From Candidatus Limosilactobacillus merdigallinarum (GTDB taxonomy: Bacteria > Bacillota > Bacilli > Lactobacillales > Lactobacillaceae), in the NCBI GenBank assembly GCA_019114515.1, contig DXFH01000001.1, positions 62,001 to 126,000 of the forward strand: DNA of 64,000 bases, written 5' to 3'. Below are positions 4,406 through 64,000 of this stretch, piece by piece; the stretch's first letter is position 1; every line of letters starts with the position of its first letter. Position numbers and translations under genes: made by a program. The notes under the pieces were generated by a model. That model saw only the letters and a program-made list of their open reading frames with translations, was not told where the DNA came from and searched no databases.

Positions 4406-4479
4406 TCGGAAATACACGATTTGAACGTGCGACCTCTGCGTCCCGAACGCAGCGCTCTACCAAACTGAGCTAATTTCCG
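4406..4479 (-). tRNA. tRNA-Pro(CGG)
   Basis: 7-bp acceptor CGGAAAT/ATTTCCG, anticodon loop TTCGGGA, GTTCAAAT T-loop. Confidence 0.93.
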
Positions 4480-4541
4480 AAAATCTAAAAAAGAGCGCCA
4501 CAACCATCATTTAAGATAACTGCCACGCTCCTCCTTAATAA

Positions 4542-4615
4542 TGCACCCAGTAGGAGTCGAACCTACAACCTTCTGATTCGTAGTCAGACACTCTATCCAA
4601 TTGCGCTATGGGTGC
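4542..4615 (-). tRNA. tRNA-Arg(ACG)
   Basis: Acceptor GCACCCA/TGGGTGC, anticodon loop CTACGAA. Confidence 0.93.
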
Positions 4616-4628
4616 AAAATAAACAAAA

Positions 4629-4700
4629 AGCGGAAGACGGGATTCGAACCCGCGACCCCCACCATGGCAAGGTGATGTTCTACCACTGAACTACTTCCGC
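4629..4700 (-). tRNA. tRNA-Gly(GCC)
   Basis: Acceptor GCGGAAG/CTTCCGC, anticodon loop TTGCCAT. Confidence 0.93.
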
Positions 4701-4781
4701 ATGTGATATTGCTATCAACATTTATAAATGATACTAAATAACTCTCAAAACGTCAATAAGTTTTTTGAAGAAATTTAGTAA

Positions 4782-4864
4782 TGCGGATAAGAGGATTCGA
4801 ACCTCCACGTCTAAAAGACACAAGAACCTAAATCTTGCGCGTCTGCCAATTCCGCCATATCCGC
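4782..4864 (-). tRNA. tRNA-Leu(TAG)
   Basis: Acceptor GCGGATA/TATCCGC, long variable arm, anticodon TAG. Confidence 0.92.
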
Positions 4865-4870
4865 AAAAAA

Positions 4871-4943
4871 TAGAGGATACAGGGCTCGAACCTGTGACCC
4901 TCTGCTTGTAAGGCAGATGCTCTCCCAACTGAGCTAATCCTCC
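4871..4943 (-). tRNA. tRNA-Val(TAC)
   Basis: Acceptor GGAGGAT/ATCCTCT, anticodon loop CTTACAA, discriminator A. Confidence 0.92.
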
Positions 4944-7230: not shown

Positions 7231-7448
7231 AAAAAAGCCTTCTGACGGGCGGCCATCAGAAGACTTATAGTTAATCGTCATTCTTGAAGCTCCCCGCGTA
7301 TACACGCGACAGTCCGCATCCTTTCGGAATACGTCCCAATGTCAGTGGTGGGCAAACACCCCTGCATTTCGGCAATGCACCCTTTCGCCAAGCTTAAGAC
7401 ATTTGCCTGTCTCCACATGGTTACTGATGAGCACTGCAACCTCTTCAA
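7231..7448 (-). promoter_or_regulatory. Lysine riboswitch (L-box) with terminator, controlling lysP-like gene
   Basis: Minus strand GAAGAGGTTGCAGTGCTCATCAGTA...TTGGCGAAAGGGTGCATTGCCGAAATG...GGGACGTATTCCGAAAGGATGCGGACTGTCGCG, then GTCTTCTGATGGCCGCCCGTCAGAAGGCTTTTTT terminator. Confidence 0.88.
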
Positions 7449-7504
7449 ATTTTAATTACTTTTTAAGTATACATAAATTAATGCTGACAACAAGCGTTTT
7501 TTAA

Positions 7505-26212: not shown

Positions 26213-27693
26213 ATGAATCCAATCACTATTCATAACTTAAACTTTGCTTATCCTGGCCAACCACCCCTATTTTGTCACTGTAATCTAAATATTGATGACA
26301 GCTGGAAATTAGGGCTGTTGGGAAGTAACGGACGGGGTAAAACGACCCTTATGAAAATCCTTCTGCAGCAATTACCGGTTACTGGCCAAATTACTAGTCA
26401 GTTGCAATTCAGCTACTTTTCCTTATCAATTCATGATGAAAAAATGTTTGCTTATGAAGCTTTTAATAGCTGCCACTCCCGACAGTATTGAACGCTGCCA
26501 AATTGAGCGCGAATTAAATTTGATGCAAGTTGATCCGGCGCTGCTTTGGCAACCATATGAAACCCTCAGTGGCGGTGAACAAACTAAACTCCAGCTGACA
26601 GCGACCTTCGCACAGGATGGTTATTTCCTCCTTCTCGATGAGTCAACCAACCACCTCGATCAAGAAGGACGCGCACAAATCACAACATACCTGAACCATA
26701 AACAGCAAGGCTTCATCATTACCAGCCATGATCGGAATTTCTTGGACAAAGTGATTGATCATACATTAGTGATTGAACGTCATCAATTGGTTCTGACCCA
26801 TGGAAATTATTCCACCTATTTCAAGTAAAAAGATCTTCGCGATCGTGAAGCCGAGTCTTATAATCAGCATTTAAAAGCTGAAATCAATAATTTGCATAAA
26901 CGTCGTCAGCAACAGCTGCAATGGGAACAGAAAGCAGAAAATGAGAAGAAAAATAATGCCCATGCGGATAAAGGCTTCATTGGTGCTAAAGCAGCTAAAA
27001 TGATGAAGAAAACTATCACTACCGGCAGCCGGCTAGATAGTGCCATCGAAAAGCGTCAAGGACTGCTTCGAGAAGTGGAGAATAGCGAACTGCTGCCAAT
27101 TAATCTAGTTAGCACCCACCATTCGATATTATTACAGCTTAATGCAGTTTCATTAGCAATTGGCCAAGAACCATTCTTCAAATCCATCAATTAGCCGTTG
27201 GTGAGCATGATCAGGTTGCATTGGTTGGCCAAAATGGTGCTGGTAAATCAAGTTTAATTCGTGCAATAAAAGGACAATTTACTGGTGAAATTCACGGTCG
27301 GATTGCCATTGCTCATGGAATCAAAATCAGTTATGTGCGTCAGCAATACAATAACCGTGGTTCATTGGCCCATTTTGCCAAGCAAAACCACCTCTCATAT
27401 CAAACACTATTAACCATTCTCCGTAAACTAGGCATGGAACGCCAAACCTTTAACGTGCCCATCGAAGAAATGAGTATGGGACAACAAAAAAGGTAGAATT
27501 AGCTCGTTCACTAGCAATGCCTGCTAACCTGTATATTTGGGATGAGCCACTAAATTACCTAGACACATATAATCAAGATCAACTGATTCAATTGATTAAA
27601 GCGGTCCGTCCGCCATTACCCTTCACCGAACATGATCAACACTTTATTCAAACGGTAGTTAGTCAAACAATTAAATTATTTCCCAGGAAATAA
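26213..27693 (+). pseudogene. ABC-F ATPase (antibiotic-resistance/ribosome-protection type, Lsa/Vga/VmlR-like), degraded
   Basis: WKLGLLGSNGRGKTTLMKIL, LSGGEQTK, LLLDESTNHLD, GQNGAGKSSLIRAIKG; frameshifts near 26470, 27190 and 27490 plus stop TAA at 26826. Confidence 0.85.
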
Positions 27694-27811
27694 GGGAGTG
27701 TGACAGAAGTCGTTTACGACTTCGTCTTCACACCCCCGCGATCACAAATAGAGGTCCAGAGTTCGGCTTTTGCCGGGCTTTGCACCTCATTTGTGTACCG
27801 CGTTGTTCGCT
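27694..27811 (+). repeat. Family-1 intergenic repeat, copy A
   Basis: GGGAGTGTGACAGAAGTCGtttaCGACTTCGTCTTCACACCCCCGCG + CACAAAT..ATTTGTG hairpin + TACCGCG. Confidence 0.75.
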
Positions 27812-31680: not shown

Positions 31681-31787
31681 CGCAGTACACAAATAGGCCG
31701 CAAACATTCGGTAAGCCCGAACATTTGCGGCCATTTTTGCTCGTAGGGGCGTGACTACGAAGTCATAAACGACTTCTGTCATGCTCC
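31681..31787 (-). repeat. Family-1 intergenic repeat, copy B
   Basis: Reverse complement GGAGCATGACAGAAGTCGTTTATGACTTCGTAGTCACGCCCC...GGCCGCAAA..TTTGCGGCC...TACTGCG. Confidence 0.7.
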
Positions 31788-31806
31788 TTTTTGTTTGACG
31801 TCTAGT

Positions 31807-37744: not shown

Positions 37745-38065
37745 ATCAGCTAAATAACTGCACTTATTCTGCTCGTTGCGGTCTGGATCGCAGCGGTGAA
37801 ATTGTCGTTAGTGATGTGCAAACAGCACTTACGACAAGACCAAGCTTTTAGGGAGTGGGAAAGAAGTCGCTTGTGACTTCGTCTTCCCACCCCCGCAAGG
37901 ATGGCTAGGTGTTCTGGGCGTTGATTTGTCAACGTCAGGAACCCAGCCAGCTACCGCGTCATTATATAAATAACTTTGAAATAGTAAAGAAACTGAGTTG
38001 ATTTCCAGCTTCTCAAAGTTGTGTCCACCGCGATCCAGCTCCAGAAAGCGTGCAAGCTGATATAA
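37745..38065 (+). repeat. Family-2 intergenic repeat, copy C (interrupted by family-1 copy C)
   Basis: GGTCTGGATCGCAGCGGTGAAATTGTCGTTAGTG...CACTTACGACAAGACCAAGCTTTT ... TCAAAGTTGTGTCCACCGCGATCCAGCTCCAGAAAGCGTGCAAGCTG. Confidence 0.7.
37851..37958 (+). repeat. Family-1 intergenic repeat, copy C
   Basis: GGGAGTGGGAAAGAAGTCGCTTGTGACTTCGTCTTCCCACCCCCGC + long hairpin 37903-37948 + TACCGCG. Confidence 0.75.
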
Positions 38066-49465: not shown

Positions 49466-49611
49466 AAAACTTGCGATAGCGAGGTGGTCTCAGTGGTGAA
49501 ATTCGACTTAGCGTGTCAACGCTTAGTCGAATCCTCAGTTTGAAGACCGGCACGGACGGACTCCAAATGATGGGCACCACGATCCAGACCAGGCAGAGCG
49601 AAGCAAGTTTT
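49466..49611 (+). repeat. Family-2 intergenic repeat, copy D
   Basis: AAAACTTGC/GCAAGTTTT outer arms, TGGTCT/AGACCA, GTGGTG/CACCAC, hairpin ATTCGACTTAGCGTgtcaACGCTTAGTCGAAT. Confidence 0.7.
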
Positions 49612-53449: not shown

Positions 53450-53568
53450 GTCGGGGTAGGAATGATAGAGTTATTGTCCAACGGAACGGAATATGAACGT
53501 TGGAAGGAGGCTTAGCCGCTTTATCATCCCGAATTCACCGCAGCAGATTTTAGCATGCAGTTCCCGAC
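53450..53568 (+). ncRNA. Candidate structured 5'-UTR element of folT
   Basis: Nested pairings GTCGGG(53450)/CCCGAC(53563), ATGATA(53462)/TATCAT(53522), TCCAACG(53477)/CGTTGGA(53498), beginning close to the predicted start site of a TTGCAA-18-TATATT promoter. Confidence 0.4.
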
Positions 53569-63760: not shown

Positions 63761-63854
63761 CAATTTTAAAATGATACACGCAAACAAAAACGAGGTATTC
63801 GCTTGTAGATTGACCATGACAGTCATTAAATGATGCGCCACAAAGCCTAAAAAT

Positions 63855-63993
63855 CAGCTTGCACACTGGGGCTCAGTGGTGAGATTGTCGTAAGCGCAGA
63901 CTGCGCTTACGACAAGACCAAGCTTTGAGACAATAGAATCATTGGCTCAAAGTTGTGTCCGCCACGATCCAGCCCCAGAAACGGTGCAAGCTG
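63855..63993 (+). repeat. Family-2 intergenic repeat, copy E (best-preserved)
   Basis: CAGCTTGCAC/GTGCAAGCTG, CTGGGGCT/AGCCCCAG, GTGG/CCAC, perfect hairpin TTGTCGTAAGCGCAgacTGCGCTTACGACAA, hairpin CTTTGAG/CTCAAAG. Confidence 0.8.
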
Positions 63994-64000
63994 GTTTAGT

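Follow-up and report, generated by a model that had tools for sequence, protein, structure and literature searches.

Covariation and Watson-Crick pairing in a branched palindromic repeat of Lactobacillaceae

The closest described counterparts of the repeat analyzed here are the REPIN and repetitive extragenic palindromic (REP) sequences with their RAYT transposases, which share with it intergenic palindromic modules that occur many times per genome, as inverted doublets as well as singlets, and of which the REPIN doublet is thought to be the mobile unit (PMC3116915). Three copies of the repeat, designated E, D, and C, lie between open reading frames (ORFs) in a window of 64,000 nucleotides from Candidatus Limosilactobacillus merdigallinarum, the whole stretch of DNA that was analyzed (C28:62001-126000 of the source genome G000, which comprises 1.56 Mb in 32 contigs). 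The module of the repeat is about 110-150 bp long and forms a three-way junction, while REP is a short hairpin; furthermore, a Y1 transposase is absent in G000 and in the carriers G026 and G049, and 8-10 bp direct repeats occur at three units. The family is REPIN-like in layout and MITE-like in its ends, but is not filed under REPIN/RAYT, since a search for the transposase that defines that group came back negative.

Foldback miniature inverted-repeat transposable elements (MITEs) are likewise small and non-autonomous, with terminal inverted repeats, direct repeats as at three recent copies here, and a patchy presence. In contrast to these, the fold of the lactobacillar repeat persists although its two ends have different letters at paired positions, and internal mismatches are conserved. 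The end hairpins of IS200/IS605 provide a proposed analogy of folded DNA as a recognition signal, while several carriers of the repeat are without TnpA and three units have direct repeats. ERIC, NEMIS, BOX, and RUP are intergenic palindromic repeats of roughly 100-150 bp with foldable copies, as is the lactobacillar repeat; they occur in other hosts, and we know of no branched fold with conserved mismatches among them, a distinction drawn from their descriptions. The attC site of integrons is an imperfect palindrome with extrahelical bases in which structure is kept above sequence (PMC3053210). This likeness is by analogy only, as the lactobacillar repeat is branched and dispersed singly or in pairs without gene cassette arrays.

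We favor, at slightly better than even confidence, the reading that E, D, and C are modules of a small non-autonomous mobile DNA specific to Lactobacillaceae, whose fold would be recognized by a mobilizing enzyme.

Fold and covariation of the module

The first-pass annotation had described E, D, and C as intergenic copies of one multi-branched element with stems that differ in sequence and stay paired. The quoted stems of E and D are present in the sequence at the positions given, and both copies match one covariance model (R1, built from a hand-checked alignment of 20 copies, E and D among them), E at 63866-63978 with 1.8e-30 and D at 49483-49593 with 1.4e-31. Against dinucleotide shuffles, the folding of E reached z = -10.2 on the plus and -8.2 on the minus strand, and that of D -4.8 and -4.9 on the two strands (RNA parameters; DNA parameters were similar). 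E and D represent two sequence classes with one fold, relatives of each were found in G000 by blastn, and the model matched 28 times in this genome. Copy C is a real copy of the repeat as well, but not a simple one: it combines D-type and E-type parts with a 144-bp insert in its second hairpin, and therefore scores just 29.8 bits.

On the plus strand, the module consists of P1 (outer and variable), P2, an internal loop CA/G(A,T)TCC, P3, H1, H2, P3', P2', and P1', with P3, H1, and H2 joined in a three-way junction. What appears as a 4x4 loop in H2 is formed by three more base pairs between a bulged G and a bulged T. Covariation was assessed in 120 distinct copies, taken from Limosilactobacillus as well as other genera (alignment A3). 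Standard pairs occupied 96.3% of 4575 cells, compared to 72.1% after shuffling and 28-46% when slid by 1-3 columns, while both-sided changes occurred in 37 out of 39 pairs and the covariation score was 0.620 vs. 0.174. The three inner H2 pairs, which are unpaired in the search model, still covary as Watson-Crick pairs: A-T, G-C, C-G, and T-A occurred 49, 37, 23, and 3 times at columns 99-196, while the other two pairs were C-G 83 and T-A 23, and A-T 104 and G-C 9, respectively. Unpaired positions are conserved too, with a T.T mismatch in H1 kept in 108 and an A.G mismatch in H2 kept in 109 of the 120 copies, and the internal loop CA/GTTCC conserved at 81-97%. The earlier proposal that compensatory changes reflect a constraint on structure and not copying alone holds very strongly in the 120 distinct copies.

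At A3 columns 26-30 and 96-106, some helix positions are hypervariable yet nearly always paired, while neighboring pairs are nearly invariant. Such a pattern could show where a binding protein touches the fold.

Pairing statistics in DNA and RNA

The same observations could be explained if the module were a structured RNA (a leader, terminator, small RNA, or ribozyme-like element) spread by copying, with selection on the transcript, possibly in either orientation. A three-way junction with A.G and T.T mismatches and bulges is typical of RNA, the covariation is very strong, and the interval from the valS T-box to the start codon holds one pair of modules, which would therefore be transcribed. 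An RNA helix, however, tolerates G.U and does not tolerate A.C. Among the 120 copies, G.T occurred in 102 cells (2.2%) and A.C in 82 (1.8%), a difference that was not significant (p = 0.16). In 30 lysine riboswitches of the same genus, with a structure predicted by RNAalifold and a similar mean identity (62.6% compared to 61.5% in the repeats), G.T accounted for 217 cells (17.7%) and A.C for only 17 (1.4%). The presumed transcribed strand of copies between co-directional genes, as determined with a simple ORF caller, had no excess of G.U either (48 vs. 53 A.C), and copies of either orientation are found in gaps between divergent, convergent, and co-directional genes. Rfam 15 returned no match at the gathering threshold and only weak matches below it (GlmZ, 22.1 bits vs. 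a cut-off of 60). tRNAs were set aside as a control in favor of the lysine riboswitch, as their G.T fraction of 8.9% comes from aragorn bracket output that may omit A.C.

Since G.T is not commoner than A.C, a constraint on Watson-Crick pairing in DNA is the simplest reading. The constraint looks DNA-level or strand-symmetric and not like that of a single-strand RNA. Where RNA and a cruciform had at first been offered side by side, the DNA side is now favored, also after strand correction, and the RNA side disfavored. We consider a structured RNA improbable as the explanation of the family, while an RNA function exerted from both strands, in different copies, could still be accommodated.

Pairing might also be kept by mutation, through quasipalindrome correction via template switching in replication together with gene conversion between copies and without structural selection. 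Such a process would likewise change both partners of a Watson-Crick pair and leave G.T and A.C equally frequent, and the complementary arms outside the conserved core do differ between copies. Correction should, however, erase mismatches and would not fix their letters, so that the survival of the T.T and A.G mismatches, the bulges, and the 2x5 internal loop makes it unlikely that correction alone maintains the fold.

Paired units, distribution, and the search for an enzyme

Two neighboring model matches are often inverted relative to each other, a minus copy followed by a plus copy. All 25 neighbors within 700 bp in the complete genome G177 have this (-)(+) arrangement, while in the Limosilactobacillus genome G046 it was found in 11 out of 15 neighbors within 800 bp, the other four being ++. 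The paired unit measures 370-650 bp, holds no coding gene, and follows the order terminal inverted repeat, reversed E-type module, spacer, D-type module, terminal inverted repeat. Its inner and outer inverted repeats have the consensus TGCCGTCCTCC...GGAGGACGGCA, and in global folds many complete units adopt a four-way junction. Recent copies in G177 align from about GGTTCTTTCTTAAGTT, the outer inverted repeat, to its complement. Direct repeats of 8-10 bp (CATAAAAG, AAAAATAA, and GAAAAATTAA) flank three recent units 28-32 bp outside TGCCGTC; they occur in 3 of about 14 units at matching distances, and mismatched control flanks reach at least 8 bp in 5%. Solo modules make up most of the copies in G000, where a few loci hold D-/E+ pairs and no terminal inverted repeats are visible for the solos; the copies inspected from G046 and G000 did not show the outer end. 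The solo modules of the window are probably degraded or independently spread halves of such pairs. In Lacticaseibacillus brantae (L093 1765-2211), three modules stand in tandem 168 bp apart, together with an inverted one.

Within Limosilactobacillus, 6 out of 54 genomes had matches, with 28 in G000, 24 in G012, 49 in G026, 68 in G046, 3 in G004, and 2 in G049. A sample of Lactobacillaceae, in which at most nine matches were counted per genome, was positive in 116 out of 401 genomes and 15 out of 40 genera, and all 23 positive genomes of an order-wide sample belong to this family. The richest genomes were G177 and G396 with 106 and 81 matches, respectively, and near-identical copies occur at different loci of G177. 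The repeat family is large and apparently has no catalogue entry; no paper on it was found in the open-access literature.

The valS leaders of G049 and G026 carry a paired unit as an insert of about 400 bp between the T-box and the start codon (L137, L138), where the other relatives with a readable valS leader have a short stretch. These two units are in opposite orientation to each other, by inversion or by two independent insertions. Solo modules were found on Lactiplantibacillus plasmids (L149 2998-3114, next to a heavy-metal P-type ATPase gene, and L150 2996-3112), and plasmids of Ligilactobacillus salivarius hold weak relatives. A phage- or plasmid-borne spread was rejected, as phage had no match and only some Lactiplantibacillus plasmids had one, at one place each and with no clean empty site. 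Pattern matches in an Acidilobaceae metagenome-assembled genome (L089) and in one viral contig (L100) were unsupported by the model and taken as chance.

Under the favored reading, the unit would be moved by an enzyme supplied in trans that recognizes the module in its folded state, in DNA that is extruded or single-stranded. Recognition of the fold would preserve both the pairing and the unpaired positions contacted by the enzyme, leaving the identity of the paired letters free to drift; the module can fold as a three-way junction in which mismatches and bulges are fixed, and the pair with its spacer as a four-way cruciform. More tentatively, a lactobacillar recombinase or transposase may read the branched fold itself, with the paired unit acting as the four-way cruciform, in a structure-addressed class of mobile DNA.

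Several results weigh against mobilization of this kind. The REP-type Y1 transposase, for which a search elsewhere in the genome had been suggested, was absent (Y1_Tnp) from G000, G026, and G049, whose assemblies are 85-99% complete. No transposase gene recurred beside the copies, where the recurring genes were either common ones or spurious ORFs that overlie the repeats, and ISL3 transposase was absent from G012, G026, and G046, some carrier assemblies being incomplete. Direct repeats are limited to the three recent units, one of which has the remnant of a neighboring copy, and must be read next to the control rate given above. The insertion comparison concerns the valS leader in relatives and is not a base-resolution empty site of a window copy. 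The covariation figures lean towards the model to which alignment A3 was fitted, and the shuffles leave relatedness among the copies in place. Between widely spaced modules of G177, where an autonomous copy was looked for, only ordinary genes were found, and a non-exhaustive search gave no autonomous element with the same ends. Both Y1 and ISL3 were rejected as drivers, as their presence does not track the carriers.

The unit could otherwise be a conventional MITE derived from a DDE insertion sequence that is perhaps ISL3-like; the transposase would then need only the ends, and the palindromes inside would be passengers or have another use. The end of the unit, GGTTCTTTCTTAAGT, shares 11 of 15 positions with GGCTCTTTGTCAAAT, the ISL3 end, by manual count, and the direct repeats of 8 bp are AT-rich. 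We regard this origin as decidedly unlikely: the three rich carriers named above lack ISL3 transposase while G049, a genome with one repeat pair, has 24 copies, the outer end was not observed in the inspected copies of G046 and G000, and covariation is not expected of passengers. The ISL3 end of G177 itself resembles the end of the unit in the first bases only. A domesticated host element that is no longer mobile, such as a site for a nucleoid, topology, or repair protein as proposed for REP functions, would suit the intergenic position of nearly all copies and their high density in places, as with ten strong matches within 15.5 kb (G046, L229), but is scarcely probable, as patchy presence in one genus and the valS insertion indicate mobility over a fixed host role.

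Window copies and meaning of the family

Table 1. Parts of the three repeat copies, in positions of the window
Feature	Position	Strand	Basis
Copy E, complete solo module, E class	63850-63998	+	model match, fold
E outer stem P1, 5' strand CAGCTTGCAC	63855-63864	+	sequence, fold
E outer stem P1, 3' strand GTGCAAGCTG	63984-63993	+	sequence, fold
E stem P2, 5' strand CTGGGGCT, partner 63971-63978	63866-63873	+	sequence, covariation
E stem P2, 3' strand AGCCCCAG	63971-63978	+	sequence, covariation
E internal loop CA, opposite GATCC 63966-63970	63874-63875	+	conserved 83/94% though unpaired
E internal loop GATCC (family consensus GTTCC)	63966-63970	+	81-97% conserved though unpaired
E stem P3, 5' strand GTGGTG, partner CGCCAC 63960-63965	63876-63881	+	pairs 16-207, 17-206, 19-204 covary
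E stem P3, 3' strand CGCCAC	63960-63965	+	sequence, covariation
E hairpin H1, TTGTCGTAAGCGCA...TGCGCTTACGACAA	63885-63915	+	sequence, fold, covariation
E hairpin H2 (bulged G, bulged T; A.G mismatch conserved)	63916-63959	+	alignment
Copy D, solo module, D class	49466-49611	+	model match 49483-49593
Copy C, whole (composite)	37745-38065		
Copy C 5' edge, from reversed D-class module	37771-37798	-	matches reversed D copies (GCTCGTTGCGGTCTGGATCG)
Copy C E-class hairpin H1	37802-37837	+	sequence, model
144-bp block (family 1 of the first-pass annotation) inside copy C hairpin H2	37847-37990	+	
Copy C E-class 3' end (H2 3' arm, P3', P2', P1')	38012-38064	+	87% identical to 63946-63998

The 144-bp block of copy C occurs at full length three times in G000 (C28, C29, and C10), always within H2 of an E-class copy, and the E-class element and its insert probably spread together. 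Family 1 (GGGAGTGTGACAGAAGTCG...) is itself an inverted-repeat element, located at 27692-27749, 31733-31790, and 37847-37990 of the window; its nine matches in G000 are mostly to its start, and the full 144-bp form is limited to the three E copies. At L007 1436-1575, a reversed D module is fused to an E module with a junction near AAGC, which suggests a deletion between adjacent modules. Other window features matching known models were a lysine riboswitch (7279-7453), a tetrahydrofolate riboswitch (53450-53542), and a cluster of five tRNAs (4406-4943).

The repeat is very common in food and gut lactobacilli, with up to 100 or more copies per genome, and its covariation is strong enough for it to be mistaken for a new RNA, while its near-absent G.T pairs point to DNA as the selected molecule. 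The old question of whether bacterial palindromic repeats are kept as RNA or as folded DNA becomes testable by one statistic. The repeats change leader regions, as at valS, and are bound to mislead noncoding-RNA searches; genomes with more than 100 copies, many near-identical, are material for finding the enzyme. If the structure-addressed reading is true, the family would represent a class of mobile DNA outside the REP/RAYT, IS200/IS605, and integron systems.
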